A stretch of DNA of 64,000 bases from an archaeon HR01. GTDB lineage: Archaea > Thermoproteota > Nitrososphaeria_A > Caldarchaeales > Caldarchaeaceae. The notes below the pieces were generated by a model. The model searched no databases, was not told where the DNA came from, and worked only from the letters and a program-made list of their open reading frames with translations. The DNA is taken from the NCBI GenBank assembly GCA_002898355.1, contig BEHD01000011.1, positions 1-64,000 of the forward strand. Direction: 5' to 3'. The translations under genes were made by a program, and so were the position numbers. Positions 3,113 to 22,473 of this stretch are shown piece after piece. The first letter of the stretch is position 1. Each line of letters starts with the position of its first letter.

Positions 3113-4087
3113 CTAGATCTTCTCCACTTCAACTCCGAAGGTCTGGGCCACCCTAACCGCCGACTCGTCCACCTGGACTCCCGCCACAACCCATCGCACC
3201 CTTCCAGCCACACCCTCGACAGCGGTCTTCTCGATGTCTAGACGTCTGACGGTCGATGATATAAGGTCGTTGGCCGTAACCCTATACATCACAGTGTAAA
3301 GTTTTGTCTCACTCCTATCCCTGCTCACGGCAACAACGTCTATGAGATGGCTTGTCCCGCTCAACCCAACAACCCTGACCTTCTCCCTCACGTTATATCC
3401 GCTATCCACAAGTCTTCGGACCAGAAGCTTGGACGGGTCGGCGGACTCCAGCAGGCTTCTGCCCTCAGCCGTTAGGGCGTACCGCCTCAATACTATCTGG
3501 TCAGCGTTCTTAACCATGTCAACCCACCCACATGATGAGCACTCCACGAAGGTGGCGGGGTCTGGGAAGAGGTTGCCGCAGCTGTTGCATAGAAACCTAT
3601 AGTCAACCACCGTGAAACTAGATTTATCTAGGGTGTCTCTACATTTGGGGCATGATGTGAGGTTCTTGAGGGCCTGCTCAGGTATCGATGCTCCACAGCT
3701 ATGGATGTATACGGCCGACCTCATGGTGTCCTCAGAGTTGCATGAGGGGCATGCTGTCTTCGGTCTAAGAAAAACGTTGCCGCACAGTACGCACTGCAGC
3801 ACCTTCTTATGGAAAATCGAGTTGACCAGCCCTCTCTGGACGAGGATGTCGAGCCTATCCACCAGCTCTGTAACCGACATATTTTGGGGGGCGTTGCCCA
3901 CAGCCCTTATCTCGCCGGAGTCCTGTGCGAATTCGAATAGGATGCATGGCTCACTGTTTCCACATACCTCTCCAACCCAGCGGAGAATCTGGAAATCCTC
4001 CGCAGACAGGCTAAGCGATGACAACCTCCCATGACCTGCGCTGTTCCTCGACAACCCTTGCAAGCTCCTCAGCATTATACTTTTCAC
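3113..4087 (-). CDS. TackOD1-like multi-zinc-ribbon protein with possible C-terminal nuclease-like domain
   Basis: CVLCGNVF..CPSCNSEDTMRSAVYIHSCGA...CPKCRDTL...VDYRFLCNSCG; overlaps the start of the preceding ATPase gene's 3' end. Confidence 0.55.
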   Translation of the reverse strand: MKSIMLRSLQGLSRNSAGHGRLSSLSLSAEDFQILRWVGEVCGNSEPCILFEFAQDSGEIRAVGNAPQNMSVTELVDRLDILVQRGLVNSIFHKKVLQCVLCGNVFLRPKTACPSCNSEDTMRSAVYIHSCGASIPEQALKNLTSCPKCRDTLDKSSFTVVDYRFLCNSCGNLFPDPATFVECSSCGWVDMVKNADQIVLRRYALTAEGRSLLESADPSKLLVRRLVDSGYNVREKVRVVGLSGTSHLIDVVAVSRDRSETKLYTVMYRVTANDLISSTVRRLDIEKTAVEGVAGRVRWVVAGVQVDESAVRVAQTFGVEVEKI

Positions 4088-5745: not shown

Positions 5746-7266
5746 GTGGGTAGGGAGATGGTGGAGGGTCAGACGGTTTTAAGGGCTGAAAACATCTCCA
5801 AGAGCTTTGGTACTGTGAAGGCTTTGAACAATGTCAGTTTTGATTTGAGGAGGGGTGAGATACACGGCCTCCTCGGAGAGAATGGAGCCGGGAAGACAAC
5901 CCTCTGCAACATATTATACGGAATGGTGAGGCCGGACTCGGGAAAGATTTATCTTAACGACGTGGGTGTGAGGTTCACATCACCCAGAGACGCTATGGCC
6001 ATGGGTATAGGAATGGTCCATCAGGAGTTCACCTTAATCCCGAACCTTTCCGTGGTGGACAATGTAGTACTTTTCACTGAGAACAGCGGCCTACTCATGA
6101 ACAGGTCGGAGGCTGCCGAGAGGGTGGAGAGATACGGCAGCGAGTACGGCCTCAAGGTCAATCCATACGTAAAGGTATCGGAGCTCTCGGCTGGTGAGAA
6201 GCAGAGGCTGGAGATTCTGAAAGTCCTGATGCGTGGGGCCAGGATACTTATACTCGACGAGCCGACATCGGTTCTGACGAGGATAGAGACTGTCGAGCTC
6301 TTTAGAGCCTTGGAGAAGATGGCAGCGGACGGAAGGTCGGTCATCCTGGTAACCCATAAGATGGATGACGTCCTCTCCTCAGCCCATAGGATAACCGTCC
6401 TAAGGCAGGGCGTGAAGGTGGCCACGTTGGAGAACAGGGATGTGGATAGGTCAACCCTGGCTAGGCTCATAGTTAATAGGGATGTCGTCTTCAGCCTTGA
6501 GAAGCCAGTATCCCAAGCTGGTGGGCCGCTCCTCCAGATACAGGACCTAAGGTATCTCGACACTTCTGGGGTTGAGGTTCTTAAGCGGGTTAGGCTGGAG
6601 GTGAGGGCTGGTGAGGTTGTCGGCATCTGTGGGGTGGCGGGGAACGGGCAGAAGGAGCTGGTGGAGACTGTAGTAGGTGTTCTAAAGCCCACCTCAGGCA
6701 AAATATTCCTCAACGGCAGAGAGGTGAGCAGGCTACCGCCCTCCAGGAGGAGGGAGCTGGGGATGGCATACATCCCCGAGGAATTCACGGAGGGGCTTGT
6801 CCCAGATTTCAAGCTCTGGGAGAACATAGTCCTATCCACACCCATCTCAGCCAGGCTATCCAGCCGTGGGCTGTTGAATCCGTTGAGGGTGAGGGCTGCG
6901 GTGGAGGACCTGATAAAAACCTACCAGATTAAGACCTCATCACCGGATGCTTTCACATGGAGCCTGTCGGGTGGGAACAAGCAGAAACTCCTTCTTGCAC
7001 GGGAGTTCTACCAGAAGCCCACCGTGATTGTAGCCCACAACCCCACCAAAGGTCTTGACATCGCAGCCACAGAGTATGTTAGGCGGGCCCTTCTAGAACT
7101 CCGCAGTCAGGGAAAGGGGGTCCTCCTGGTCTCTAACGACTTGGATGAAGTGGTGGAGATGAGCGACCGACTCATGGTGATGCATGCCGGCCGTATAGTG
7201 GGAGAGTTCAGCCATCAGAGCGTCGACCTAGACAGGGTGGCGAGGCTAATGCTCGGAGCTAGCTAG
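5746..7266 (+). CDS. Double-domain ABC transporter ATPase, nucleoside/BMP type (YufO-like)
   Basis: Two ATPase domains: GLLGENGAGKTT / LSAGEKQR, and GICGVAGNGQKEL / WSLSGGNKQK. Confidence 0.9.
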   Translation: MGREMVEGQTVLRAENISKSFGTVKALNNVSFDLRRGEIHGLLGENGAGKTTLCNILYGMVRPDSGKIYLNDVGVRFTSPRDAMAMGIGMVHQEFTLIPNLSVVDNVVLFTENSGLLMNRSEAAERVERYGSEYGLKVNPYVKVSELSAGEKQRLEILKVLMRGARILILDEPTSVLTRIETVELFRALEKMAADGRSVILVTHKMDDVLSSAHRITVLRQGVKVATLENRDVDRSTLARLIVNRDVVFSLEKPVSQAGGPLLQIQDLRYLDTSGVEVLKRVRLEVRAGEVVGICGVAGNGQKELVETVVGVLKPTSGKIFLNGREVSRLPPSRRRELGMAYIPEEFTEGLVPDFKLWENIVLSTPISARLSSRGLLNPLRVRAAVEDLIKTYQIKTSSPDAFTWSLSGGNKQKLLLAREFYQKPTVIVAHNPTKGLDIAATEYVRRALLELRSQGKGVLLVSNDLDEVVEMSDRLMVMHAGRIVGEFSHQSVDLDRVARLMLGAS

Positions 7267-7269
7267 ACT

Positions 7270-8202
7270 TCATCTGAATGGCTTCATCAAAGCCGTTGGA
7301 GGACGCGCCCTCCTGGCAAAAACCGGCATCAAAGCTATTATTGTCAGGAACGGCAACATGTTGAGGACATAGTATCTGACACCTATGTCGGCTGTCTGGA
7401 GGATGGTCTGAATCGAGTCGACAAAGTTGTATAGAAGGAGGGGGAGGAGGAGCCTGACGGGGCTCCAGTTGCCGAAGTAGACCATCGCCACAGCTATGAA
7501 GCCACGGCCAAACGTTATGTTGGTTATGTAGCTCCTGAGGAAGGCCACGGTGAAGTAGGCTCCGCTAAGGGATGCTAGGAGGGAGCCCAAAACCACAGCC
7601 ACCATCCTCGTCCTCAAGACGTTGACCCCGGCCGAGTGGGCTGCCTTAGGGTTCTCGCCTGCAGCCACTATACGTAGACCCAGCTTGGTGTGGTTGATGA
7701 GAAACCATGTCAGCGGTATGCAGGCTAGGGCCGCATAGACGAGTATGTTGTGGCGGAATAGTATAGGCCCTAACACCGGTATGTTGGAGAGGAGGGGTAT
7801 CGGCGTCTCAGGTATGACAGAGACAACGGGCGATGAGACATCCCTGAAGAGGATTCGATAGAGTATGTCGGGTAGGCCGAAGCCGAATATCCATATGCCC
7901 AGCCCCACAACCACCTGGTTGAGACCAAGATACACCGTGAGGAGGGTGTGGACCAGCCCCATAACAACCCCTACCGCCATAGCTGTTAGCAGCCCCATAA
8001 ATGGCTGGCCGGTCTGGAAGGAGATATAGAAGGCTGTGAACGCGGTTATCAGCATCACACCCTCCGTCCCCAGATTCACCACCCCCGACTTCTCCGCTAT
8101 CACCTCTCCGAGGCTGGCGAAGAGGATTGTCGGCGCTATCCTCACCGTTATGGCTAGGGAGGTTATGAGGAATTCTAGGGTTATAAGGCTCTCCACACCC
8201 AT
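7270..8202 (-). CDS. Nucleoside-type ABC transporter permease (YufQ-like)
   Basis: EKSGVVNLGTEGVMLITAFTAF and GLRIVAAGENPKAAHSAGVNV are typical of this permease family. Confidence 0.88.
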   Translation of the reverse strand: MGVESLITLEFLITSLAITVRIAPTILFASLGEVIAEKSGVVNLGTEGVMLITAFTAFYISFQTGQPFMGLLTAMAVGVVMGLVHTLLTVYLGLNQVVVGLGIWIFGFGLPDILYRILFRDVSSPVVSVIPETPIPLLSNIPVLGPILFRHNILVYAALACIPLTWFLINHTKLGLRIVAAGENPKAAHSAGVNVLRTRMVAVVLGSLLASLSGAYFTVAFLRSYITNITFGRGFIAVAMVYFGNWSPVRLLLPLLLYNFVDSIQTILQTADIGVRYYVLNMLPFLTIIALMPVFARRARPPTALMKPFR

Positions 8203-9234
8203 CTAGGATACCCTCCTCAAGGTTCTCTGGACCACTGTGAGGGATATGAGGATGCAGCCTATGACGGCGTAGACCAGTGGGAAGGGTATCTGAATCATCC
8301 TCTGCATGTTTTGGGCTCCTATCATGATGTATCCGAAGAAGAGGCTGGAGAGGGCTACCCCCAATGGGTGGGCTCCACCAAGCATGGCTACAGCTATAGA
8401 GATGTATCCGAACCCTGTCTCTGCATATCCGGCGTCCATTCTGTAGAGTACACCCATGATGTGTAGCGCCCCAGCCAAGCCTGCGGCTGCGCCTGATATT
8501 ATCATCGCTTTAAAGAGGGTCCATTCAACGCTTATGCCCGAGGTTCTGGCTGCCTCGGGGTTGAGGCCTACAGCCCTCACCTTCAATCCGAAGTAGGTTC
8601 TCTCCATCAGGATATAGAAGACGGCTGCGGCCGCTATTGCGAGGATTAGGGATGCGCTGAGCCGTGTGCCCTCTATCAGGATGGGCATCCTTAAATCCTG
8701 TGGAAGCACGTCGCTGAGGGGGTATCCAGCCGAGAACCTACCCCTTATCGGCCCGTCGAGGGCCCACCACATTACGCTGACGGCCACAAGGTTGAGTAGG
8801 AGGGTTACGACTATCTCGTTGCCTCCGAACCTGGACCTTATAACGGCTGGGACGAGGGCCCAGAAGGCGCCTCCAGCTATGCCTCCTAATATCATGACGG
8901 GTGGGAGTAGGGGTGTCGGGAGGTATGGTGAGAGGTATTTCCAGGTCATGAGGTTGAATATGCTGCCTATGAGGAACTGTCCTTCAGCTCCCACATTCCA
9001 TATCCCCGCCCTTATTCCCAGCCCTATCCCCTCGGATATGACGAGGAGGGCTGTGAACCAGACTAGGACTTCTCCTATGTTGTAGAGGTCTGAGACGGGT
9101 GCGAGGAGGAGTGTGGAGAGGGCGAGACCTATGTCAGAGCCTGTGGCTAGGACTATGACAAGTCCTAGGCCGAGACCGACCCCGGCTGCTCCTAGGTTGA
9201 TGGCTGAGATGCGAAAAAATTTGGGGAGGTTCAT
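8203..9234 (-). CDS. Nucleoside-type ABC transporter permease (YufP-like)
   Basis: RAGIWNVGAEGQFLIGSIF...GGNEIVVTLLLN...LKVRAVGLNPEAARTSGI. The track start at 9507 is probably too long; MNLPKFFRIS at 9234 is preferred because the extra N-terminus overlaps the upstream SBP gene. Confidence 0.88.
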   Translation of the reverse strand: MNLPKFFRISAINLGAAGVGLGLGLVIVLATGSDIGLALSTLLLAPVSDLYNIGEVLVWFTALLVISEGIGLGIRAGIWNVGAEGQFLIGSIFNLMTWKYLSPYLPTPLLPPVMILGGIAGGAFWALVPAVIRSRFGGNEIVVTLLLNLVAVSVMWWALDGPIRGRFSAGYPLSDVLPQDLRMPILIEGTRLSASLILAIAAAAVFYILMERTYFGLKVRAVGLNPEAARTSGISVEWTLFKAMIISGAAAGLAGALHIMGVLYRMDAGYAETGFGYISIAVAMLGGAHPLGVALSSLFFGYIMIGAQNMQRMIQIPFPLVYAVIGCILISLTVVQRTLRRVS

Positions 9235-9245
9235 GTGTTGGCTTT

Positions 9246-10493
9246 CTAGAGACCCTCGGCTCTGGCGGCTGATGGCTTGCACTCCGGTTTTTCGGGTTGG
9301 TCGAAGCATGTATAGTCGAAGACTATCTTGAGGGTTCCCTCCAGTATCTTGTTGTAGAGGGACATGGCTTCTTTGCGGATATCTTCGGGGACGTTCTTTC
9401 CTATGCTTATAGTTACTATACCAGCCGCCATGGTGGCTGTGTGGAAGCCGTTCTTCCATGTCCCCCTCACGTAGTCCTTGAGGGCTGTGTCGAAGAGTAT
9501 AGCCCATTTGAAGACTATGGAGCCCATCAGCTTCTGTATGTCAGGCCTGAGGGTTGGCAGGTCGGCGTAGACCGATGAAGTCCAGACGTTCTTCTCCACC
9601 GCTGCCTCCGTCACACCGACGTCTATGCCGTCTCCACTGGAGGAGACTACATCGGCGCCTGCGGCCACCATGGATTCTGCTGCCTTCTTCGCCCCTGCGA
9701 CATCAGCCCATGATAGCGGCATATATGCCTCGAGGACTTCGGCGTTGGGGTTGGCCAGGTGGACGCCGAGCTTGAAGGCTTCATGCCCCTCCCAGATAGA
9801 TGGGACACGTCCACCACCTACTATACCCACCTTGTTGGTCTTAGTCAGCTTGCCAGCCATGTAACCCATGAGGAACCCTCCCTCACCAAGCGTCATCCAG
9901 ATGTTATAGACGTTGGGCGCGACCTGGGCTCCAGGCTCGAAGACGCCGACCAGACCCGGCGCACAGTCAACACATACAAACATGGTGTTGGGGAACTGGG
10001 GGGCTATCTTGTGGAACATCACCATATACTGTATTCCCTGCCCTATTATCACGTTGTATCCTCTCCTAGCATAATCTACAGCATATGGTTCAGCCTTTGT
10101 ACCGTCGAAGAGGTTTCTCTCGACGGAGAGTTCGAAGCCGTAAAGGTTCTTGAGGGTTGTGACGGCTTCGTAGGCGGCATAGTTCCATGAGTTATCCTTC
10201 TCATCGATGGGGAGGATTAGCAGGACTTTCAGGTCTGAGAAGGGTGTCTTTCCCGGAGCGGTCACCGTCGCAGTCTGTGTCACTGTCCTCTCGACTGATG
10301 TTGTTGCGGTTACGGTGGATACCTGTGTAATGGTTGCCTGACCTCCGACTGTCTGCGTAATGGTTACCTCCCTTCCGCCTGTCAGCTGACCGAGGGCCAA
10401 CGCACCTATCGCCAGCCCGACGACTAGGGCGACAACAACGGATACAGCGGCAACGGTGGAGCTAACACCAACAACATCTTTTTTCCCGGACAT
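9246..10493 (-). CDS. BMP-family substrate-binding protein, membrane anchored with Thr/Val-rich linker
   Basis: N-terminal TM, TVTQTATVTAPG linker, then KVLLILPIDEKDNSWNYAAYEAV...GQGIQYMVMFHKIAPQFPNTMF. Confidence 0.88.
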   Translation of the reverse strand: MSGKKDVVGVSSTVAAVSVVVALVVGLAIGALALGQLTGGREVTITQTVGGQATITQVSTVTATTSVERTVTQTATVTAPGKTPFSDLKVLLILPIDEKDNSWNYAAYEAVTTLKNLYGFELSVERNLFDGTKAEPYAVDYARRGYNVIIGQGIQYMVMFHKIAPQFPNTMFVCVDCAPGLVGVFEPGAQVAPNVYNIWMTLGEGGFLMGYMAGKLTKTNKVGIVGGGRVPSIWEGHEAFKLGVHLANPNAEVLEAYMPLSWADVAGAKKAAESMVAAGADVVSSSGDGIDVGVTEAAVEKNVWTSSVYADLPTLRPDIQKLMGSIVFKWAILFDTALKDYVRGTWKNGFHTATMAAGIVTISIGKNVPEDIRKEAMSLYNKILEGTLKIVFDYTCFDQPEKPECKPSAARAEGL

Positions 10494-10655: not shown

Positions 10656-12980
10656 ATGACCTCGTCTAGGTTTCTTGGGAGGGCGATGCTCCGTAAAGAG
10701 GATACACACCATCTAACTGGTATGGGCTCATTTGTGGATGATTTCCATCTACCACAGATGGTTTACGGTGCGGTTGTGAGGAGTCAGTATGCCCACGCCC
10801 GAATCCTGTCCATAGATGTGGGGAGGGCGTTGAGGATGCCCGGTGTTCTGGCCGCCTATACGTGGGAGTCTCTGGGTGAGCTGGCTCAGAATCTACCCCC
10901 CAGCGTCTCACCCCTCCAAGCATATCCTATACGTTATAAGACCCATTACGCCCTGTCGAGGGATAAGGTGAGGTATGTAGGTGAGCCTGTCGCCTTCATA
11001 GTGGCCGAGAACCAATACCTGGCTAGGGATGCCGTAGAACTGGTGGAGGTGGAGTACGAGCCTCTACCACCTGTGGTGGATGTGGAGGAGGCTGTCAAGC
11101 CCGGCTCATCCCTGGTCCATGAAGACATGCCCAATAACATAGCTGCCGAGAAAGATGTAGATGTGGGAGACTATGAGGCTGCGGAGGCCAGCGCCGATGT
11201 TGTGGTGAGGGAGAGGCTGGTGTTTAACCGTGGTGCGGGCCAGAGCATAGAACCTAGGGCTGTCCTAGCCCAATACGATAGACGAACATCCAGCCTGACC
11301 GTCTGGGACTCAACCCAGGCACCCATCCCAATAAGAAACGGGCTGGCCAAACTCCTCGGACTACCCGACTCGAGGGTGAGGGTGATAGCCCCAGACGTAG
11401 GGGGAGGCTTCGGACCCAAGATCATGCTCTTCTACCCCGAGGAGATCTTGGTGCCCTTCGCAGCCATGCAGCTTGGGCGGCCTGTCAAATGGGTGGAGAC
11501 CAGAACAGAGTATAGTATGTGCGCCAACCAGGAGAGGCATCAGGTCCACTATGTGAGGGCTGCCTTCTCCAAGGATGGAAGGATACTCGGTCTGGCTGAC
11601 AGCTTCCTAGTGGATACCGGCGCCTACACACCTTATGGCGTGATGGTGCCTATCATCACCATGTGCACAACGCCCGGACCCTACAGGATTAGGAATATGA
11701 GGTTCCACTTCAAATCCGTCTTCACCAATAAGACGATAGTGAGTCCTGTCAGAGGCGCTGGCAGGCCTACTGCGGTCTTCGTGATGGAGAGGGTGATGGA
11801 TAGGGCGGCCAGAATACTGGGGTTGGGAAGGGAAGCGGTGAGGAGGATAAACCTGATAAAGCCGGATGAATTTCCGTGGGAGACAGGCCTTATCTACCAG
11901 GATGGAGCGCCCAACACATACGACTCCGGAAACTACCCAGCCCTACTGGAGAGGCTCCTCGAGATATCCGAGGCTACGAGGTGGGAGGCCGTCAAGAGGG
12001 AGGAGAGCCGCCAGGGTAGAAGGGTTGGGTTCGGCCTCGCATTATATGTCGAGGGAGCTGGCGTGGGGCCTTACGAGATGGCACGTGTGAGGGTGGGGCT
12101 GGATGGTAGGGTATCTGTCTCAACAGGTGTAGGGTCCCAGGGCCAGGGGCATCAGACGGTCCTAGCCCAGGTGGCCGCCGAGGTCCTAGGGGTGGACCCA
12201 TCAACGGTGGATGTTGTGGTGGGTGACACCGCCCGGATGGAGTGGGGTGTGGGTACCTTCGCCAGCAGGTCAGCCTCAGTGGCGGCACCCGCCGTGTACA
12301 AAGCAGCTATGAAGGTGAGGGAGAAGATATTGAGGCTGGCCTCTAAAGCACTGGAGGCTAGGCCTGAGGACCTGTATCTCGAGAATGGCAGGGTTTACGT
12401 GAGGGGTGTGCCTGAAAGCAGCATGACATTGGGGGAGCTGGCTGTCCTAGCCACGCCCCTGAGGGGGACGATAAACGAGGCGCCGGGCCTCGAGGCCACA
12501 GATTTCTTCAGCCCGCAGAGGTCTGTCTACAGCAGCGGAGGATGTGTGGTCAAGGTGGAGGTGGATGAGGAGACGGGCAGGGTTGAGGTGAGGAAGCTCT
12601 GGATAATCCACGACTGTGGAGAGATGATAAACCCCCTCATAGTGGAGGGACAGGTCTTGGGCGGCATCTCCATGGGACTGGGCATAACATTAATGGAGGA
12701 GATAGCCCATGACGAGAACGGCAACCCTCTCACCACAACATTCGCCGACTACCTCATCCCCTCGGCCACCGACATACCGCAGCAGATAGTGATGGAACAT
12801 CATATAACACGAACACCTATGAACCCCCTCGGCACCAAGGGTGTGGGAGAGGCCGGAGTCATACCCATACCAGCAGCCATAGCCTCAGCTGTGGACGACG
12901 CGCTGGACTACCGCATATTCGTGGCCGAGTCGCCGATAAAAACCGAGAAGATACTCCGGAGCCTTAAAGGGGTGAGTTAA
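10656..12980 (+). CDS. Xanthine dehydrogenase/CO dehydrogenase family molybdopterin large subunit, paralog 1
   Basis: DVGGGFGPKIMLFYPEE, VRGAGRPTAVFVMER, GTKGVGEAGVIPIPAAIASAVDDAL. Confidence 0.92.
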   Translation: MTSSRFLGRAMLRKEDTHHLTGMGSFVDDFHLPQMVYGAVVRSQYAHARILSIDVGRALRMPGVLAAYTWESLGELAQNLPPSVSPLQAYPIRYKTHYALSRDKVRYVGEPVAFIVAENQYLARDAVELVEVEYEPLPPVVDVEEAVKPGSSLVHEDMPNNIAAEKDVDVGDYEAAEASADVVVRERLVFNRGAGQSIEPRAVLAQYDRRTSSLTVWDSTQAPIPIRNGLAKLLGLPDSRVRVIAPDVGGGFGPKIMLFYPEEILVPFAAMQLGRPVKWVETRTEYSMCANQERHQVHYVRAAFSKDGRILGLADSFLVDTGAYTPYGVMVPIITMCTTPGPYRIRNMRFHFKSVFTNKTIVSPVRGAGRPTAVFVMERVMDRAARILGLGREAVRRINLIKPDEFPWETGLIYQDGAPNTYDSGNYPALLERLLEISEATRWEAVKREESRQGRRVGFGLALYVEGAGVGPYEMARVRVGLDGRVSVSTGVGSQGQGHQTVLAQVAAEVLGVDPSTVDVVVGDTARMEWGVGTFASRSASVAAPAVYKAAMKVREKILRLASKALEARPEDLYLENGRVYVRGVPESSMTLGELAVLATPLRGTINEAPGLEATDFFSPQRSVYSSGGCVVKVEVDEETGRVEVRKLWIIHDCGEMINPLIVEGQVLGGISMGLGITLMEEIAHDENGNPLTTTFADYLIPSATDIPQQIVMEHHITRTPMNPLGTKGVGEAGVIPIPAAIASAVDDALDYRIFVAESPIKTEKILRSLKGVS

Positions 12981-13365
12981 TCCTACGGGCTATTTCATCC
13001 CTATCGGTGAGGTCTTCAGACGCCGAGAAGGCCACCAGCCTGGGCGGCTCAATCTTCCTCCTTCCCGAATCCTGGCTTATGAGAGAGTATCGCAGCCCAA
13101 AATCATGCAGCTCCCTCAACCCAACAGCGATCACCAGATATCTCCGCTTGATGTATTCCTCGGCCTGATCCATCACAGGCTCTAGGTATCCGATCCATCT
13201 CTCCTCAGGGTATGAGGCCTCGGGCATCTTCAAAATGCCATAGCCCAGGTCTCTTAGAACCTCATACACCAATGTTTTCTGGGGGAGGCCAGCGTATCTG
13301 GATGGGTTGATGAAGTAGTCGGCTACGAGGGCCAGCTTGAAGGATCTGTAGTCCTTTGTGTCCAT
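12964..13365 (-). CDS. Conserved-looking hypothetical protein
   Basis: 133-aa ORF immediately downstream of the TudS-like ORF on the same strand; no family recognised. Confidence 0.45.
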   Translation of the reverse strand: MDTKDYRSFKLALVADYFINPSRYAGLPQKTLVYEVLRDLGYGILKMPEASYPEERWIGYLEPVMDQAEEYIKRRYLVIAVGLRELHDFGLRYSLISQDSGRRKIEPPRLVAFSASEDLTDRDEIARRINSPL

Positions 13366-13374
13366 AAACCATCC

Positions 13375-13941
13375 TCACTCGAAGAACCTATCCAGCTCCT
13401 TAACCGCCTCATCCATCTTGAAGCCTGGGACATCCATGGGGACACCTGTCTCGCCGTCAAAGGCAAGGCCACGGCGGGCCAGCTCCTCCTCAAGCTCCTC
13501 AATCCAGACACCCTTGCCGGGTACCACCTGATACTGTTCAAGGCTTGCAAATGGCCTTCCACCCCAGCTGGCATTTCGGCCCGTAAGCCTCACACCCGAT
13601 GACGGGCTTCCATCCAACCCAACCAGATACACCTTACACCCAGCCCTCTTATAATACTCCACCAAGTCTGCGGTAGACCTAGCGATGGCCCTACAGTGTT
13701 TTCTATATCCCGGCGTATCATACTGGTCCTTGGTCTGCCACCACCTGTTCACACCCATAAAAGTAAGCTCCGGACATGGGAGCTGCTCCACCTCATACCC
13801 TTTCCTCCTCAATAGGTCCACGATGGGGTAGACCACGCCGGGGTAGAACGCGAACTGGGCCACCTTAGCATTCTGATTTAGCAGGCAGTTGGCCAGAAAA
13901 ACAACCTTCCTAACCATGGCTGGGAAAAGGTTTGAAGACAC
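13375..13941 (-). CDS. TudS/DUF523-related putative desulfidase-like protein
   Basis: VVFLANCLLNQNAKV...LPCPELTFMG...VYLVGLDGSPSSGV, resembling the DUF523/TudS pattern. Confidence 0.6.
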   Translation of the reverse strand: MSSNLFPAMVRKVVFLANCLLNQNAKVAQFAFYPGVVYPIVDLLRRKGYEVEQLPCPELTFMGVNRWWQTKDQYDTPGYRKHCRAIARSTADLVEYYKRAGCKVYLVGLDGSPSSGVRLTGRNASWGGRPFASLEQYQVVPGKGVWIEELEEELARRGLAFDGETGVPMDVPGFKMDEAVKELDRFFE

Positions 13942-14026
13942 AACATATATAGATTTTCTTCTCTAGGATTCGTCGTAGGCCCCTAAAACAATTATATTTC
14001 TCCGGAGTTGTTATGGTGGCCGGTTC

Positions 14027-14863
14027 TTGAGAGATGTGGATGTGCTGGCTGGTCTAGAGGCCTTGAAGATAATGGATAGGGATGCCTCAGGCTGGGTGGA
14101 ATCTGTCTCACGGAAGGCGATCTATCTAAGAACCGTATCCGACGACATCCTCATCCTCTCGGCAGAACCTCTAACACCCTACACACTCGTAGTCGGTAAA
14201 GAATGGCCTAAGGTCCAAGAAGTAGCCGAGAAAGGTATGGAGGTATGGAGGGATGGGGGGGCTATTATTCTCGGTGGGAGGACGGCTTTGAGAATCAGAG
14301 GATGCACTGACGACTCGCCCATACCGACGGGGTGTCTGCCGGAAAAAGAGAACCTGCTAATAGCTAGGAAGGTAGTCCAGGTTCTGGCGTCGATATCTCA
14401 CGACGAAGTCATACCTGAGGGTGTGAAGATTCTGAGGGAGAGAGGTCCCGACATGGAGATGCTGAAGACCCTGATAGGACGTGGCATCGGCGCCACACCA
14501 TCCGGCGACGACTTCATAGCTGGAACCCTTCTAGGACTACACATCATAGGTGGGAGAGAGAGCACAGAACCGTTGAAGAGAGGGCTCCAAACCGGGACAG
14601 GATGGCTCAGCAGATGCATCGTCGAACATTCATCCCACGGCTGCACATACACACCGCTGGCCCGCCTATGCCGGACCATGGCATCCGACGGAGATGTGGT
14701 TGAGTGGGTCTCTAGGACAGTACGGATAGGCTCCACCACAGGCCTCTCAACGATGGTAGGCTTGCTGGAGACTTTCGGCTATTACTATAAGAGCTTGTCG
14801 AGGACATCCTCCAGGTCCTTCTCCAGCTCCGGCGGCGGCCTCCAGCTAACCTCCACCACCTGA
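14027..14863 (+). CDS. allH-like: DUF2877 family protein, oxamate carbamoyltransferase AllH (YlbF)-like
   Basis: GIGATPSGDDFIAGTLLGLHIIGG signature; near AllF- and AllG-like genes. TTG start. Confidence 0.75.
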   Translation: MRDVDVLAGLEALKIMDRDASGWVESVSRKAIYLRTVSDDILILSAEPLTPYTLVVGKEWPKVQEVAEKGMEVWRDGGAIILGGRTALRIRGCTDDSPIPTGCLPEKENLLIARKVVQVLASISHDEVIPEGVKILRERGPDMEMLKTLIGRGIGATPSGDDFIAGTLLGLHIIGGRESTEPLKRGLQTGTGWLSRCIVEHSSHGCTYTPLARLCRTMASDGDVVEWVSRTVRIGSTTGLSTMVGLLETFGYYYKSLSRTSSRSFSSSGGGLQLTSTT

Positions 14864-14930
14864 ACACCCTGTTGACGGAGGCTATCAGCGAAGAGTGAGA
14901 CGCCTATGGAGAGGACTTTGTCCACATTCC

Positions 14931-16472
14931 TCATCTGCTAGCAATCAACTCCCTTGAGAGGTTCTCCAACATTTCTGGGTCTCCCAGGCCGCAGGCAGCC
15001 CCATATGCTGCGGCTAAGGCGTTTGACGAAGTCATTATCAACGGCCTCTTCCTCAACTCCGCTATCTGAGGCCACTGGGGGTCCGAGACGCTCCCCACAA
15101 CCCTCACCACCAGCTTCGCCCTAGAACCCTGAATTCTCTCCAGCCCCAAATCAGCCAGGGTTCGGGCCACAACATCCCCTGGGGCTCCATAGCCAATTAT
15201 CAAATCCATCAAAACCGCCGAGACATCGGAGCCCTCCAACTCCGAGCTAACCCGCCTATTTCGAAGGCTGGGGTCGATTATTGGGTGGGGCCTACCCTCC
15301 GTAAACTCCTCGGCCCCATAATCAACTATCGTGGCGGCCACAGAGTCGTGGGGGCTCCGAAGCTTCTCCACCCAATCCAGGCCTAGATTGGTGTAGACCT
15401 TGAAACCCGCCTTCCTCCAGATGAACGCCGTCTCGGTGGCCAGGGTCCCACCACAGTAGAAGCCTCGGGGATGGCTTGGACCGGACACAGCACCCATAAG
15501 GGTTGACACCTCCCTCTCCACACCCTCCACCACTGAGGGATATCTACTGGGTTCCAGCATAGAGCATATCCGGAGCGCCAGCCCGTGAATGGTTGACTCA
15601 TGCCTATAGCCCTTCAACTCCCATCCATCGTATCCTAGGAGGCAGGTGATGACAGGTTTGGATGGGTTCACATCGTCCAGCACCCTACCAACAACATCCA
15701 TATCCGACTGCTTGGCCAGCAGGGCGATAACCCTGGTCCCGGCATCCGACTCCAGCCTCTTCAAAGCCTCAGCCGTCATGACGCCGCCCACACGGGCCGT
15801 CAAATCCCTACCTCCAACGCCTATTGCATGGCTCACACCTATCCCAAAACCGTCAAGGATGGTGGTGAGCTCCTGTATCCCCGAGCCGGCTGAGGCCACC
15901 ACACCCACCGGCCCCCTCCCAACCTTGTTGGCGAAGCCGAATCCAACACCAGCAATGATGGATGTTCCCGCTTCAGGCCCCATCACCAGCAACCCCTTCT
16001 CCACAGCCCTCCTCTTCAACTCCACCTCCACATCGAGAGGGACGTGGTCGCTGAAGATGAATAGGTTGACACCATGATCCAGAAGCCGTGAGGCTATCCC
16101 CGAGACATACCTACCCGGAACCGAGATGGATGCATAGGAGATGTCGGGGTTCTCCCTCAAAGCCTCGTCAACACCACCATATCTCAGCCCGGATGTAGGC
16201 CTTGTCTCCAGAACCATCTCACGGGCAGCCCTCAGAACAGCCTCCAGATCACCCGTGGCACGGACCGCTATTATGATGTCGTTGGGGCCTGCACCCTCTC
16301 CATCACCGGCGAGAAGGGCTAGGTCCCGCAGGACTGCCTTGTTGGAGTCTGTGCCCATCACGACGGCTCCGTCCTCCACGCCTGGGAATCCCTTGAGCTT
16401 TTCGGTGGCTTCCATAAGCTGGACCGAGTCCCTGTAGAGGCCTTTTATGACTAGGTTGGCTGTCCTGGCCAC
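14931..16472 (-). CDS. allF-like: FdrA/AllF-like protein (succinyl-CoA synthetase-related fold)
   Basis: NLVIKGLYRDSVQLMEATEKLKGFPGVEDGAVVMGTDSNKAVL...VGVVASAGSGIQELTTILDGFGIGVSHAIGVGGRDL...GFYCGGTLATE. Confidence 0.8.
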   Translation of the reverse strand: MARTANLVIKGLYRDSVQLMEATEKLKGFPGVEDGAVVMGTDSNKAVLRDLALLAGDGEGAGPNDIIIAVRATGDLEAVLRAAREMVLETRPTSGLRYGGVDEALRENPDISYASISVPGRYVSGIASRLLDHGVNLFIFSDHVPLDVEVELKRRAVEKGLLVMGPEAGTSIIAGVGFGFANKVGRGPVGVVASAGSGIQELTTILDGFGIGVSHAIGVGGRDLTARVGGVMTAEALKRLESDAGTRVIALLAKQSDMDVVGRVLDDVNPSKPVITCLLGYDGWELKGYRHESTIHGLALRICSMLEPSRYPSVVEGVEREVSTLMGAVSGPSHPRGFYCGGTLATETAFIWRKAGFKVYTNLGLDWVEKLRSPHDSVAATIVDYGAEEFTEGRPHPIIDPSLRNRRVSSELEGSDVSAVLMDLIIGYGAPGDVVARTLADLGLERIQGSRAKLVVRVVGSVSDPQWPQIAELRKRPLIMTSSNALAAAYGAACGLGDPEMLENLSRELIASR

Positions 16473-16537
16473 ATTGGCAGGATGTTGCCGGCGGTCATTT
16501 AAACCATTAGTCCAGCCGCTTTACTCAAAAGAGGTCG

Positions 16538-17392
16538 GTGAAAGTGTATCTTTTTATATGTGCGGTGGTTTGTTTAGCCATGTCTGTCTATAAATGGGAT
16601 AGGGTTCTGGACTGGTCCAGGGTCCGTGTCTACGACCTCTCCCAGCCCACCAGCGCCAAAGCCCCTCCTTTTATGTGGTATCCACCCTTCAAATGGACTT
16701 GGATTAAGAGGCTTTCGGAGCATGGGGTCAACGCCATGTATATAGAGGGCCCCCTCCACACCGGAACCCACTTCGATGGCCAGCTCCACTTCATGACTGG
16801 CGGTAAAGATATCGGGAGTATCGATATCGGCTACTTCATCGGAGAGGGTGTGGTTCTCGATATCAGCAAGTATGTCGGCGACTATGACATCTACACCGAT
16901 GAGACTGTGGAGTCGGCTGCTAGGAGCGCTGGGCTGGAGATTAGGAGGGATGATATCCTCCTCCTCTACACGGGCTATAGTAGGTATGCCTGGTGTGGTC
17001 CTGAGCCTGACGAGGTGAGGTATATCTGCAAGCATCCAGGTCCGGATGTAAGGTTTGCCCGCTGGTGTATTGAAAAGGGCGTGAGGTGGCTGGGTGTGGA
17101 TGCTATCTCTCAGGACCATCCCCTCAACACGGTGATCAGGAGGGCGAGGCCAGACCTTGTGGCTGAGGCTGAGAAGAAGTGGGGTAGGAAGGTGGATGAG
17201 CTGATGCCTTGGCCGGAGAACTATCAGGTGATGCATACACTGCTATTTCCCAAGATGATACTGCATGTGGAGAACCTCGGCGGCGACATGGATAAGGTGT
17301 TGAACCGTAGGTGCATAATCGCAGGCCTTCCGTTCAGGTTCGACGGTGGGGAGAGCGCCTACTGCCGTGTAATAGCCATCACCTCTGAATGA
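16538..17392 (+). CDS. Cyclase family hydrolase (PF04199; kynurenine formamidase/isatin hydrolase-like)
   Basis: LHTGTHFDGQLHF metal-binding motif, and ILLLYTGYSRY...GVRWLGVDAISQDHPLN. Confidence 0.82.
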   Translation: MKVYLFICAVVCLAMSVYKWDRVLDWSRVRVYDLSQPTSAKAPPFMWYPPFKWTWIKRLSEHGVNAMYIEGPLHTGTHFDGQLHFMTGGKDIGSIDIGYFIGEGVVLDISKYVGDYDIYTDETVESAARSAGLEIRRDDILLLYTGYSRYAWCGPEPDEVRYICKHPGPDVRFARWCIEKGVRWLGVDAISQDHPLNTVIRRARPDLVAEAEKKWGRKVDELMPWPENYQVMHTLLFPKMILHVENLGGDMDKVLNRRCIIAGLPFRFDGGESAYCRVIAITSE

Positions 17393-17398
17393 TGGGTT

Positions 17399-18664
17399 AT
17401 GGAGGAGCTTAGGGAGGCTGTCGAGCGGGCGAATCATGAGACTGTAGAGAGGATGATGGAGACTAGGCCCGTCCTGGTGGGGGTTGAAGAGGCCAGAAAT
17501 GCGATATCCTTTCTGAGGAAGGAGTTTCATCTCACCCATGCGGGGCCGCCCATCGAGTGGGAGAGGGCCAGCGGCCCTCTACGCGGAGCTATCATAGGTG
17601 CGGCGTTGTATGAGGGCTGGGCCGACAGTGTTGAGGAGGCGGAGAGGCTGGCTGAGAGGGGGGAGATTGTTTTAGCTCCGAACCATCACTACTCCTCCGT
17701 AGGCCCCATGGCAGGCGTTATCTCCCCGTCCATGAAGGTCTTCGTGGTGAGGGATGGTGACTTCTACTCCTACACCAACCTCAACGAGGGGCTGGGCCGG
17801 GTTCTCCGGTATGGAGCCTACTCAGACGATGTCTTGGAGAGGCTGAGGTTTCTTAACGATGTCGTGGGTTCATCCCTCGCCACGGCCCTTGAGGAGTGTG
17901 TTAGGGAGAAGAATGGGGTTGACCTGAGGAATCTGATAGCGCAGGCCATTCAAATGGGTGACGAATGCCACAACAGGAACGTGGCCGCCACCTCCCTCTT
18001 CTACCGAGAGATCTCTCCATACATCATCAGGAGCTGCGACCGTGAGACAGCCGTCCGAGTCCTCTCCTTCATAGATTCCAACAACCACTTCTTCGTCAAC
18101 CTGGCGATGGCTGCCTGTAAGCTGATGGCCGACAGGGCCCACGGAGTCGAATACAGCACGATAGTCACAGCTATCTCTAGGAACGGGACCGAGGTGGGGA
18201 TTAGGGTGGGAGGGCTTGGTGCTGAATGGTTCACCGCCGAGGCTCCAATCCCCCGGGGTCTCTACTTCCCAGGATTCAGCGAATCCGACGCCAACCCAGA
18301 TATAGGTGACAGCACCATAACCGAGACCGCCGGTATAGGCTCTGCAGCCATAGCGGCCAGCCCAGCGATTGTGAGGTTCGTAGGAGGTGATGTCAAAACC
18401 GCCCTCGAGATTACCAGGAGGATGGGACAGATATGCCATACCCGTCACAGATACTTCACCATACCCTACTTGGATTTTGAAGGTACGCCGACAGGTATCG
18501 ACATCAGGAAGGTGTTGAAGCTTGGGTTAACGCCTGTCGCCGACACAGGCATAGCCCATAGGTCGGCTGGTGTAGGCCAGATAGGTGCCGGGATTGTGGA
18601 GATACCTGCGGAGCCGTTCAAAAAGGCTTTACGCCGCTATGCCGAGGTTTACGGGTTGAGGTAG
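17399..18664 (+). CDS. allG-like: DUF1116 family protein, AllG (YlbE)-like
   Basis: HLTHAGPPIEWERASGPLRGAIIGAALYEGWA...MGDECHNRNVAATSLFYREI typical of DUF1116. Confidence 0.82.
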   Translation: MEELREAVERANHETVERMMETRPVLVGVEEARNAISFLRKEFHLTHAGPPIEWERASGPLRGAIIGAALYEGWADSVEEAERLAERGEIVLAPNHHYSSVGPMAGVISPSMKVFVVRDGDFYSYTNLNEGLGRVLRYGAYSDDVLERLRFLNDVVGSSLATALEECVREKNGVDLRNLIAQAIQMGDECHNRNVAATSLFYREISPYIIRSCDRETAVRVLSFIDSNNHFFVNLAMAACKLMADRAHGVEYSTIVTAISRNGTEVGIRVGGLGAEWFTAEAPIPRGLYFPGFSESDANPDIGDSTITETAGIGSAAIAASPAIVRFVGGDVKTALEITRRMGQICHTRHRYFTIPYLDFEGTPTGIDIRKVLKLGLTPVADTGIAHRSAGVGQIGAGIVEIPAEPFKKALRRYAEVYGLR

Positions 18665-20052
18665 CGGCTGGAGATGAGGTTGGCTGCGTATCTCTCGTAA
18701 AAGCGTCTGACAATATCGTGTAGGTATCTTTTCATGTTTTTCGGCTCCACCAGTATGTCGGCTACGCCGTTGGATAGTAGTGCACGGCCGCTGGTCCTGG
18801 TCTTCATCTCTTCCCCATAGCTCTTCAGGGCCTCCTCCCTCTCAGCCCCTTTTAGGAGGTCTAAGGCCTTTCTATGCAGCAGTTCAGCCGATAGCTTGGC
18901 AGGCATTACAGCCACCTCAGCATTCGGTAGGGCCATCACATAGTCTGCACCTATACCTCTGCTACACATGAGGATGTATCCCCCCGCATACGCCCTGCCT
19001 GTTATGATGGAGATTTTCGGCACTCTGGCTGTGAGGAGGGCCTCAAAGGCTTCTGCGCCCTCCCTCACAATCCCACCATGCTCCTGCTCTGGCCCCGGCA
19101 TAAAGCCCGGTGTGTCCACGAAGGCCAGGATTGGGAGGTTGAAGGTGTCGGCGAATCTGACGAATCTCGATAGTTTTATGCATGCGTTTACGTCGATGTA
19201 TCCGTCGTGGTGTTGGGTGTTATTGGCGATTACGGCGACGGGTATGCCGTCCACCCTGGCCAGGCCTGTGAAGAGGTTCGGAGCGTAGTCGGGTGAGAGT
19301 TCGAGAAGGGTGCCGGCATCCATCAACTCCTTCCACGTGGCTCCATCCCAGCCTCCGTAGTCGTGCTGCGTCCCCCTTATGGCGGGAGGTATCTTCAGGC
19401 TGTTGGACGGTAGATATGACAGAATTCTCTTCAGAGTCTGTGCTGCCGCATCCTCGTCGTCTGCGAGCTGGTGGATGAGGCCGGTGGACCTGGCAAGTAT
19501 CTCGACAGAGCCTATATCCATGGCCGTATACTCCTTGCCCGAATAGGATGATACTGCTTTCGGTCCGTTCAGGAACATGTACCCCCTACCCTTGACACCT
19601 ACCACGATGTCTCCCAAAGCAGCTGCGAAGGCTGCGCCCCCCACACATCCCGAGATGATTGCTGTCAGAAGTGGTACTCTACCCTTTGCCTTCTTCACAG
19701 CCTTAAACATCTCGCCGACCGCAACCAGCGAACGCGGACCCTCATGTATCCTAGCGCCTGAAGAGTCTGAGATGGCTATGACAGGTACACCCATCCTAAC
19801 ACCCATCTCATAGGCGGCCGCTATCTTCCTAGCCCCCACCTCCCCCAGCGAGCCTCCGGCGAATGATGGGTCGTGGGAGTATATTACAACGTCTCGGCCT
19901 TCGACTTTTCCGATGCCAGCTACGACTCCGTCGCCGGCACCCCGTGGAAGACCTTCACCATGCTGCTCCACACCGGATAGAATCTCCCTAAAGCTTCCAT
20001 CATCCACCAGCCTTGATATACGCTTGAAGGCCATCTCCATACCGTCATCCAT
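18649..20052 (-). CDS. Acyl-CoA carboxylase beta-type carboxyltransferase (COG4799-like)
   Basis: VIYSHDPSFAGGSLGEVGARKI...ISDSSGARIHEG...FVDTPGFMPGPEQEHGGIVREGAE...SIITGRAYAGGYILM. Confidence 0.88.
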   Translation of the reverse strand: MDDGMEMAFKRISRLVDDGSFREILSGVEQHGEGLPRGAGDGVVAGIGKVEGRDVVIYSHDPSFAGGSLGEVGARKIAAAYEMGVRMGVPVIAISDSSGARIHEGPRSLVAVGEMFKAVKKAKGRVPLLTAIISGCVGGAAFAAALGDIVVGVKGRGYMFLNGPKAVSSYSGKEYTAMDIGSVEILARSTGLIHQLADDEDAAAQTLKRILSYLPSNSLKIPPAIRGTQHDYGGWDGATWKELMDAGTLLELSPDYAPNLFTGLARVDGIPVAVIANNTQHHDGYIDVNACIKLSRFVRFADTFNLPILAFVDTPGFMPGPEQEHGGIVREGAEAFEALLTARVPKISIITGRAYAGGYILMCSRGIGADYVMALPNAEVAVMPAKLSAELLHRKALDLLKGAEREEALKSYGEEMKTRTSGRALLSNGVADILVEPKNMKRYLHDIVRRFYERYAANLISSRYLNP

Positions 20053-20115
20053 ATGCCTGAATATTTGTGGGTCCGTAAAAGCTTATATCCCTTGGCAGGC
20101 CCCCATAAACAGCCC

Positions 20116-22473
20116 ATGGCAGTCACCACGTTGTTCGGGGCTAGTGTTAAGAGAAGGGAGGACCCAAGACTCCTCACCGGTTCATCCAAGTTCACGGCGG
20201 ATTTTTCACCGCCCAACACCCTATATGCGGTATTTGTTAGAAGTAGCTATGCCCACGCCAACCTGGCCACTGTTGATGTGGGGAAAGCCCTAAAGGCTGA
20301 TGGTGTGGTAGCCGTTTTGACAGGCGCCGAGCTGGGAGATGAGCTGGGCCAGGTTCCCTGCGCATGGGCAATACCCAACGCCAACCTCAAAATACCGAAG
20401 TATATGCCACTTGCTAAGGATAGGGTCAGATACGTGGGAGACCCCGTGGCGGTGGTGGTGGCTAGGTCGTTGGAGGAGGCATACGACGCCGCCGGACTCG
20501 TCAGGGTGGAGTACAGCCCATTGAAAGCGGTTGTCAACCCGGAGGAGGCCGTCAAGCCCGGGGCGCCGCAGCTCTATGACGACGTACCCAACAACACCGC
20601 ATTCACATGGTCCGTCTCCGGAGGTGATGTTGAGGATGCCTTTTCCAAGGCCAAGCATGTGGTCAAGCAGCGGCTTGTGAACAGCAGGCTGCAGCCGACA
20701 GCGATGGAGACCAGGGCTGTAGTGGCGGACTATAACAGGGTGACTGGTGAGGCAACAGTCTACATGACCTCCCAGAACCCGCATATACACCGTCTCCTCC
20801 TCTCACTGGTTACAGGCATTAAGGAGAGCAAGCTGCGGGTTATCGCCCCCGATGTTGGCGGAGGCTTCGGGAGCAAGATACACTGCTACGGGGCCGAGGC
20901 TGTAATCCTCCACCTAGCCAGAAAGCTCGGAATGCCTGTCAAATGGGTTGAAACCCGGGAAGAGAACTTCAAAGCAACAATACACGGCCGGGACCATATA
21001 CAGTATGCCGAGATGGCTGCTGATGGTGAGGGACATGTCCTAGGTTTGAGGGTGAAGTCTTACGCAAACCTCGGCGCCTATCTATCCACGGCCGCGCCAG
21101 GGATACCCACAATACTGTTCGGGCCTATGCTGAGCGGCCCTTACAAGATTCCGGCCGTATCTGTGGAGGTGGTGGGCGCGCTAACCAATACAGCGCCCGT
21201 GGATGCATACAGGGGTGCTGGGAGACCCGAGGCCACCTATCTCCTCGAGAGGATGATGGATGTTCTGGCGAGGAGGATGGGTGTAGACCCCGCCATCTTA
21301 AGGTCTAGAAACTTCATACCCTCTAGCGAGTTCCCCTATCAGGCGAAGCCGATAGGGCTGCTATACGACAGTGGAGACTACAGGCAGGCGTTGGAGAAAG
21401 CCATGCAAATCATAGGATATCAAGAGCTGAGGAGGGAGCAGGAGAGGTGGAGGAGGGAGGGTAGACTGATTGGCCTGGGAATCTCCAGCTATGTTGAGAT
21501 ATGTGGGCTGGGGCCGTCATCAGTGGTCCGGTCTACGGGTTTCGGGCTAGGACTCTGGGAGAGCGCAACCATCAGGGTTCATCCCACGGGTAAGGTGGAG
21601 GTGTTCACAGGCGCCAGCCCCCACGGCCAGGGTGAGGAGACGACCTTCGCCCAAGTCGTAGCCGACATCCTCCAGATACCCTTGGAAGACGTCGAAATAA
21701 TACACGGAGACACCGGCAAGATACCCTTCGGCATGGGCACCTACGGTAGCAGAACCACGCCGGTGGCTGGGGGCGCCATAGCCCTGGGATGCCAGAAGAT
21801 CCTCGAGAAGGCCAGGAAGATAGCGGCCCACATGCTGGAGGCGAGTGAGAAGGACCTCCAATATGTGAATGGAGCCTTCCAGGTTGCGGAGGCGCCCGAG
21901 AGGAGGAAGACCTTCGCGGAGGTGGCGTACGCCAGCTACGGAGCTGGCCAGGCGGAGCTTCCCAGCGGTCTTGAACCAGGCCTTGAGGCCACGGTCTTCT
22001 ACGACCCCTCCAACTTCACATTCCCCTTCGGAACACATATCTGCCTCAGCGAGGTAGATCCCCAGACCGGGATGGTCAGGATACTAAAATACGTGGCCGT
22101 TGATGACTGCGGCCGCAGGATAAACCCGATGATTGTGGAGGGCCAGATACATGGGGGGATAGCCCAGGGTGTGGCCCAGGCCCTCTACGAGGAGGCGGTC
22201 TACAGCCAGGACGGAGCCCTCCTCACATCAACCCTCAACGACTATCTCGTCCCCACAGCCGTCGAGATACCCGCCATAGTAACAGATGCGACGGTTACGC
22301 CTTCACCCCACAACCCCCTCGGTGTGAAGGGTGTGGGAGAGACTGGCACGATAGCCTCCACCCCGGCGGTGGTCAACTCGGTCTTGGACGCCCTAGCCCA
22401 CCTCGGAGTAACCAACATAGACATGCCGCTAACCCCCGAGAAGATATACAACGCAATCAAAGGCCGACTCTAG
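20116..22473 (+). CDS. Xanthine dehydrogenase/CO dehydrogenase family molybdopterin large subunit, paralog 2
   Basis: DVGGGFGSKIHCYGAEA, AYRGAGRPEATYLLERMMD, GVKGVGETGTIASTPAVV. Start at 20116 (MAVTTLFGASVKRREDPRLLTG) preferred over the track start 20053. Confidence 0.92.
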   Translation: MAVTTLFGASVKRREDPRLLTGSSKFTADFSPPNTLYAVFVRSSYAHANLATVDVGKALKADGVVAVLTGAELGDELGQVPCAWAIPNANLKIPKYMPLAKDRVRYVGDPVAVVVARSLEEAYDAAGLVRVEYSPLKAVVNPEEAVKPGAPQLYDDVPNNTAFTWSVSGGDVEDAFSKAKHVVKQRLVNSRLQPTAMETRAVVADYNRVTGEATVYMTSQNPHIHRLLLSLVTGIKESKLRVIAPDVGGGFGSKIHCYGAEAVILHLARKLGMPVKWVETREENFKATIHGRDHIQYAEMAADGEGHVLGLRVKSYANLGAYLSTAAPGIPTILFGPMLSGPYKIPAVSVEVVGALTNTAPVDAYRGAGRPEATYLLERMMDVLARRMGVDPAILRSRNFIPSSEFPYQAKPIGLLYDSGDYRQALEKAMQIIGYQELRREQERWRREGRLIGLGISSYVEICGLGPSSVVRSTGFGLGLWESATIRVHPTGKVEVFTGASPHGQGEETTFAQVVADILQIPLEDVEIIHGDTGKIPFGMGTYGSRTTPVAGGAIALGCQKILEKARKIAAHMLEASEKDLQYVNGAFQVAEAPERRKTFAEVAYASYGAGQAELPSGLEPGLEATVFYDPSNFTFPFGTHICLSEVDPQTGMVRILKYVAVDDCGRRINPMIVEGQIHGGIAQGVAQALYEEAVYSQDGALLTSTLNDYLVPTAVEIPAIVTDATVTPSPHNPLGVKGVGETGTIASTPAVVNSVLDALAHLGVTNIDMPLTPEKIYNAIKGRL

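Follow-up and report, generated by a model that had tools for sequence, protein, structure and literature searches.

The archaeon HR01 (Caldarchaeales; genome G000, 1.76 Mb, 93% complete) carries on contig BEHD01000011.1 (C11) a group of genes in which the three subunit families of the AllFGH carbamoyltransferase are accompanied by a PF04199 cyclase-family hydrolase and by two large subunits of the xanthine dehydrogenase (XDH) type, here named XDH-L1 and XDH-L2. Analysis of the first 64,000 nucleotides of this contig (the window) together with related loci and genomes indicates that the module genuinely exists and is conserved widely; it represents a variant on a carbamoyltransferase system already known, to which a putative pathway can be attached. 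The sequences show which gene families are present and linked across many phyla, that XDH-L1, cyclase and AllG are inherited together, that a carbamate kinase is encoded, and that allantoin genes are lacking nearby. We propose that the cluster degrades an N-heterocycle and conserves energy via carbamoyl phosphate, most likely in pyrimidine breakdown, a reading to which we assign a probability of roughly 45%. The allantoin label given to the cluster in an earlier note on this DNA is probably too narrow or wrong.

Composition and conservation of the module

AllH, AllF, the cyclase and AllG are all encoded within 14027-18664, flanked by XDH-L1 (10656..12980, +) and XDH-L2 (20053..22473, +). As the earlier note had described, AllH and AllF are convergent and AllF is divergent from cyclase-AllG, an arrangement unlike that of E. 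coli; coordinates and Pfam matches likewise bear out its cyclase-family hydrolase, two XDH large subunits and upstream transporter of the basic membrane protein (BMP) type. Scores were judged against the curated cut-offs of the Pfam and NCBIfam models, the cut-off given being that of the model concerned. Hidden Markov models place all three subunits in the families claimed for them, with the AllH-like gene (14027..14863, +) matching PF11392 at 62.7 bits (cut-off 25), the AllF/FdrA-like gene (14931..16472, -) matching PF00549 at 60.2 bits (cut-off 24.5) and the AllG-like gene (17399..18664, +) matching PF06545 at 293 bits (cut-off 27), so that AllF, AllG and AllH are jointly present above the Pfam cut-offs. 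AllF also matches NCBIfam PRK06091 (E=1e-95; 321 bits, under the 433 cut-off) and PDB 3dmy (E=1e-56), and in BLAST it is 34% identical to E. coli AllF over 492 residues; for AllG the corresponding identity is 45% over 419 residues. The structural model of AllG (predicted local distance difference test, pLDDT, 92) has a template modelling (TM) score of 0.94 to PDB 3clq, an Enterococcus protein with no assigned function, and no other structural match. Both AllG and AllH retain the residues invariant in their families, AllH keeping the family-wide GxG...TPSGDD motif, and a fold search of the PDB with the AllH model (pLDDT 86) gave no match at E<=0.001.

The survey of neighbouring genes covered 101 AllG loci, archaeal ones and others from many bacterial phyla, picked by AllG similarity alone; gene families were defined by clustering, converted to profiles and searched in all 101 loci, which are not mutually independent. 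The counts were 89 for AllF, 76 for the cyclase, 63 for AllH and 53, 52 and 52 for the medium (M), large (L) and small (S) XDH subunits, followed by NCS2 permeases (22), amidases (19), CaiB CoA-transferases (11), carbamate kinase (10) and cytosine-deaminase-like genes (8). Where at least 5 kb lay on either side of AllG (53 loci), AllF was present in 51, AllH in 42, the cyclase in 42 and the XDH large subunit in 37. A single archaeal locus (L143) holds a full set comprising CaiB, amidase, XDH S/M/L, cyclase, AllF, AllG, AllH, NCS2 and carbamate kinase. This locus and L148 are compact versions of the module in other Thermoproteota; L148 is without the cyclase and combines AllFGH and XDH L/M/S with cytosine deaminase and a CaiB gene.

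The cyclase (16538..17392, +; PF04199, 117.8 bits), the proposed imide ring opener, carries the metal motif HTGTHFDGQLH, which satisfies HxGTHxD...H, and its PF04199 relatives include isatin hydrolase, which opens a lactam ring, and kynurenine formamidase. AllG occurs in 12 of the 44 genomes of the class (and in 21 of 398 in a sample of the phylum), and a cyclase of the same subfamily is present in all 12 of these AllG-positive genomes, in G022 as a partial match only. One additional genome (G028) has the cyclase; it was rejected as an example of a cyclase genome truly without AllG, the assembly break at the end of its contig falling inside AllF. Only three cyclase-like genes are encoded in the 1.76 Mb of the host, so that chance would place one in about 3% of such stretches. 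An imidase of Pseudomonas putida YZ-26, considered as a member of the cyclase family, was not used as support, being a polysaccharide-deacetylase-like imidase according to PMC9304392.

The earlier note had called the XDH-type enzymes orphans. Neither large subunit has adjacent M and S genes, so the term holds to that extent, but XDH-L1, unlike XDH-L2, belongs to a clade linked to AllFGH. A tree of 61 large subunits, whose bacterial members were drawn solely from AllFGH loci, contains two AllFGH-linked groups, A and B, each forming one branch with a support of 100 in the Shimodaira-Hasegawa-like approximate likelihood ratio test (SH-aLRT). Clade A consists of 19 AllFGH-linked enzymes, including XDH-L1, three relatives from the same family and enzymes of Chloroflexota clusters, and it stands apart from the large-subunit paralogues of the host; clade B holds most other archaeal and bacterial AllFGH-linked large subunits. 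Orthologues of XDH-L1 with more than 60% identity occur in 6 of the 44 genomes of the class, all of them AllG-positive, and were not found in the two AllG-negative genomes of the host's family; G005 and G006 keep the orthologue though it is unlinked to AllG there. Because XDH-L1 falls into clade A with the Chloroflexota enzymes and co-occurs with AllG, the tree and the distribution argue that it is a true partner of the AllFGH module. XDH-L2 groups with unlinked paralogues of the host (47% identity to a copy on contig C8) and is probably an unrelated paralogue outside the module.

Both proteins are large subunits of the molybdenum-hydroxylase kind. XDH-L1, which has Pfam MoCoBD matches, reads VRGAGR at the active-site motif and XDH-L2 reads YRGAGR; the AYXCSFR loop of CO dehydrogenase form I occurs in neither. 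The possibility that they are aerobic CO dehydrogenases was rejected on this motif together with the tree, and the nearest solved relatives of XDH-L1 include quinoline 2-oxidoreductase. A large-subunit query has 19 matches in the host genome, fragments included, against 5 genes for the FAD subunit, which implies that many large subunits share M/S partners or act without them. On contig C14 a stand-alone M/S pair clusters with group A subunits (support 98-99) and adjoins an XdhC-like gene and an amidase of the type seen in the clusters, making it a candidate partner of XDH-L1.

A proposed route from heterocycle to carbamoyl phosphate

No carbamate kinase is encoded in the window, as the earlier note had observed, and the kinase does not stand in an operon with allFGH; a search of the host genome located one at G000:C17:34175-35134 (TIGR00746, 413 bits, cut-off 358). 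Its neighbours are two carbamoyltransferases of the YgeW/ornithine transcarbamylase (OTC) type, an SsnA-like aminohydrolase, an XDH L-S-M set and two F420-type luciferase-like monooxygenase (LLM) oxidoreductases, and the cluster (L124:5702-18201) also has two pyridoxal phosphate (PLP) synthase-like genes. This cluster is of the reductive-uric-acid type, much like the Chloroflexota variant in PMC12507026, whose main text makes no mention of archaea. Genes of the SsnA/YgeW type are located here on C17 and absent at the AllFGH locus, and a separate purine-type cluster is a reason to seek a different substrate for AllFGH. The C17 kinase can serve both loci. The window also encodes, at 34971-36425, a D-hydantoinase/dihydropyrimidinase (TIGR02033, 487 bits, cut-off 393) that shares 39% identity with E. 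coli HyuA and might make the C17 pathway complete; in L167 a gene of similar kind adjoins a BMP transporter and an orthologue of XDH-L1.

E. coli AllFGH interconverts oxalurate plus phosphate and oxamate plus carbamoyl phosphate (PMC11326118), a chemistry that would also allow an N-acylurea derived from barbiturate. On this basis we outline a pathway in which every substrate and reaction, the identity of uracil above all, is taken from the chemistry of the families. The BMP transporter would import a nucleoside or base, and XDH-L1, the proposed ring oxidiser, working with M/S subunits from elsewhere (the C14 pair being the candidate), would hydroxylate uracil (or thymine) to barbiturate (or 5-methylbarbiturate). 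The cyclic imide would next be opened by the cyclase-family hydrolase, a metal-dependent enzyme, to ureidomalonate, an N-acylurea that exceeds oxalurate by one CH2; AllFGH and phosphate would convert ureidomalonate to malonamate and carbamoyl phosphate. Carbamate kinase would then turn carbamoyl phosphate into ATP, CO2 and ammonia, and an amidase would free malonate for activation to malonyl-CoA and decarboxylation. As a tentative generalisation, to which we give somewhat less than even odds, a molybdenum hydroxylase, a PF04199 barbiturate hydrolase and AllFGH as ureidomalonate carbamoyltransferase may constitute a phosphorolytic oxidative branch of pyrimidine catabolism, leading from uracil to malonyl-CoA, ammonia, CO2 and ATP, across many bacterial and archaeal phyla.

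The pyrimidine theme derives from related clusters in which cytosine deaminase (L148; 482 bits, cut-off 438), uridine phosphorylase (L054; 284 bits, cut-off 280) and malonyl-CoA synthase (L048; 565 bits, cut-off 558) exceed their cut-offs; the host genome itself has a uridine phosphorylase (292.6 bits, cut-off 280.3). The earlier note had suggested breakdown of a purine or other N-heterocycle to carbamoyl phosphate. The N-heterocycle link stands, but a purine is less likely than a pyrimidine because of these neighbours and the uric-acid-type cluster on C17. Next to AllG the window encodes a carboxyltransferase of the methylmalonyl-CoA decarboxylase alpha type (18649..20052, -; PF01039, 356 bits), which the earlier note did not list and which might catalyse a downstream step. 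Its orthologues adjoin AllFGH in L019-L021, L024, L025, L027 and L031, accompanied in L019, L024, L025 and L027 by genes for a biotin carrier and the decarboxylase beta subunit, and these genes, with the amidases, fit malonate or methylmalonate as an end product.

AllF is related to the alpha subunit of succinyl-CoA synthetase. The aligned part corresponds to SucD 52-242 and ends before the phospho-histidine His247, and 78 sequences of the AllF family have F, Y, M or L at the position aligned with the GHAGA phospho-histidine, a region in which the alignment is weak. We offer, as an idea rather than a result, that AllFGH might run only the acyl-phosphate half of the succinyl-CoA synthetase reaction: phosphate would attack the carbamoyl group, the amide would leave and carbamoyl phosphate would form, with no need for a histidine or a nucleotide. 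In a Chloroflexi contig (L109:5159-8254) AllF and AllG lie in one reading frame of 1031 residues, and this natural fusion lends support to the idea that they form a tight complex.

Competing readings of the cluster

Several observations weigh against a pyrimidine pathway. The exclusivity of clade A was tested against paralogues of this archaeal class only, and archaeal group A genes in general share with XDH-L1 the lack of adjacent M/S genes. The cytosine deaminase, uridine phosphorylase and malonyl-CoA synthase genes sit in relatives and not in the window, and the CaiB and malonyl-CoA synthase groups are small, the latter including an acetate-CoA ligase. A TudS-related gene of the window scores just under its cut-off and is without a cysteine that we take to be conserved in the family. 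The main counter-evidence is that the CaiB-type CoA-transferases of the 11 related loci are 39-47% identical to E. coli YfdE, an acetyl-CoA:oxalate CoA-transferase, which would also fit an oxalate product; several neighbouring permeases score best as xanthine permeases, and PucR purine regulators occur in some Firmicutes clusters. The CaiB neighbours bear on a variant in which the molybdenum hydroxylase and cyclase supply oxalurate (for example hydantoin to parabanate to oxalurate), AllFGH acts as oxamate carbamoyltransferase and an amidase yields oxalate for activation by CaiB. AllFGH is proven on oxalurate and oxamate only (PMC11326118), the title of a 1965 paper cited in PMC3364942 has parabanic acid inducing oxamate transcarbamylase in a Streptococcus, and the D-hydantoinase genes in the window and beside the L167 orthologue of XDH-L1 would suit such a route. 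However, an oxalyl-CoA decarboxylase homologue was found in one locus only (L145, 28% identity), two CaiB members score better in NCBIfam as succinate-glutarate transferases than as oxalate transferases, and such a route leaves the neighbouring cytosine deaminase, uridine phosphorylase and malonyl-CoA synthase unexplained; we regard the oxalate route as unlikely.

The same chemistry might act on another N-C(=O)-N heterocycle than uracil, such as thymine only, a purine-derived dioxo ring or a modified or thio-pyrimidine. Two large-subunit clades partner with AllFGH and the cyclase, so their substrates may differ; in L025 and L027 AllFGH is accompanied by decarboxylase genes of the methylmalonyl-CoA type and by PrpD/PEP-mutase family genes, which would suit thymine, and some loci have xanthine-type permeases and PucR. 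Set against this are the separate uric-acid-type cluster of the host and the fact that the neighbours above cut-off are uracil-forming enzymes, and a different ring seems to us doubtful. That the module performs the final steps of allantoin breakdown proper, with the upstream genes elsewhere or in other organisms, draws on its homology to E. coli AllFGH and on the same reading given for ammonia-oxidising archaea (PMC12625717). Yet BLAST searches of 92 AllG neighbourhoods with E. coli AllA, AllC, AllE, AllR, Gcl, Hyi, GlxR and GlxK gave no matches, and AllB was found in three loci and AllD in one, none of them near the window locus. With the allantoin genes nearly absent and the conserved cyclase and molybdenum hydroxylase unexplained, the allantoin-type pathway of the earlier note is improbable. 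An AllG tree did not separate allantoin-type from cyclase-type sequences, E. coli AllG forming a single long, poorly placed branch. Finally, XDH-type genes are common in this genome, with large subunits outnumbering FAD subunits and XDH-L2 grouping with unlinked paralogues, and their presence might be uninformative, the unit being AllFGH and the cyclase alone. The placement of XDH-L1 in an AllFGH-linked clade with support of 100, and its co-inheritance with AllG even where the two are unlinked, make such a chance mosaic very improbable.

Relation to known systems and neighbouring genes

The oxidative pyrimidine pathway of Rhodococcus employs uracil dehydrogenase, barbiturase and ureidomalonase. 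The pathway proposed here would follow the same order, from ring oxidation through imide opening to ureide cleavage toward malonate, but its opener would be a PF04199 protein in place of an AtzD/TrzD-fold barbiturase, and cleavage would proceed with phosphate, giving carbamoyl phosphate and ATP, whereas hydrolysis yields urea in Rhodococcus. AtzD/TrzD-type barbiturase (PF09663) matched 0 of the 44 genomes, but control genomes gave no match either. The reductive uric acid pathway, XdhD-YgfK-SsnA-HyuA-YgeW-YgeY-YgeX (PMC12507026), resembles the proposal in its molybdenum hydroxylase, ring opening, ureide phosphorolysis to carbamoyl phosphate and carbamate kinase; it differs in being reductive and in using an unrelated carbamoyltransferase, YgeW.

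With E. coli AllFGH and its carbamate kinase AllK (PMC11326118, PMC9843812) the system shares the three subunit families, the invariant AllG and AllH residues, the succinyl-CoA-synthetase-like part of AllF and a genome-encoded kinase. In contrast to E. coli, the window genes form three divergent or convergent units without an operon or allantoin genes, the kinase lies on another contig beside a uric-acid-type cluster, and the cyclase and molybdenum hydroxylase are constant partners. The allFGHK genes have already been reported in ammonia-oxidising archaea, and also in comammox bacteria (PMC12625717). Those archaeal clusters likewise combine AllFGH with bmpA-nupABC transporter genes and have no known upstream allantoin genes; however, the main text of that study assigns oxalurate degradation, mentions no cyclase or xanthine dehydrogenase partner, and gives biuH as the usual neighbour. 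The RGAGR motif, by which aerobic CO dehydrogenase form II (CoxL) has been called in Aigarchaeota (PMC6053391), is present in both XDH-L1 and XDH-L2. XDH-L1, unlike those enzymes, is genetically tied to AllFGH and the cyclase, which suggests that at least this subgroup probably hydroxylates N-heterocycles and does not oxidise CO.

In the literature searched, where subscription journals are mostly uncovered, nothing linked barbiturase, uracil dehydrogenase or ureidomalonate to FdrA/AllFGH; archaeal allFGH is known already, and neither the constant cyclase and molybdenum-hydroxylase partners nor the pyrimidine proposal appeared in those papers. If the proposal is true, many genes of uncultured anaerobes and archaea now annotated as 'allantoin' or 'CO dehydrogenase' would be reassigned to the catabolism of pyrimidines (or other imides), candidate genes would exist for the long-known conversion of uracil to barbiturate, and the breakdown of nucleobases would yield ATP at the substrate level, by a pathway so far masked by the labels 'FdrA', 'DUF1116' and 'CO dehydrogenase form II'.

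Upstream of XDH-L1 lie the genes for an ATP-binding cassette (ABC) transporter of the BMP/PnrA (nucleoside) type (5746-10493). It consists of an ATP-binding subunit (5746..7266, +) with two PF00005 domains, whose top NCBIfam matches are sugar/B6-type ABC ATPases below cut-off, two PF02653 permeases (7270..8202, - and 8203..9507, -) and a BMP (PnrA-like) substrate-binding protein (9246..10493, -; PF02608, 127 bits). Orthologues of XDH-L1 also adjoin a BMP transporter in L021 and L167, the pair in L167 lying about 200 kb from AllFGH. Between XDH-L1 and AllH are two genes, the second of which encodes the TudS-related putative desulfidase (13375..13941, -; NF045597, 127.3 bits, cut-off 130), likewise unlisted in the earlier note. 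Members of the TudS family adjoin AllFGH/cyclase also in L019 and L024-L027. Desulfidase activity of the window protein is uncertain because the position of the SPSxG motif reads GSPSSG. The first, orf133 (12964..13365, -), encodes a small protein of unassigned family, with no match in Pfam or NCBIfam profile searches; it pairs with the TudS-related gene here and in L026, the two orf133 proteins being 36% identical.

An Rfam scan of 5000-26000 gave tRNA and nothing else. A gene family of about 245 residues ('c9'; L021:6097-6837 and 23 other AllG loci, 24 of 101) often stands beside AllH or the cyclase; it has no Pfam match and no clear PDB relative, and its sequence is GNAT-like by eye. A third XDH-type large subunit (50240-52564) opens the interval 50240-55540 of the window; after it come genes for a GlcV-like ABC ATPase and a GlcT-like permease. 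Upstream of the transporter, 17-5609 encodes an Ups-type pilin, a UpsF-like membrane protein, an archaellum/pilus-type ATPase and a TackOD1 domain protein.

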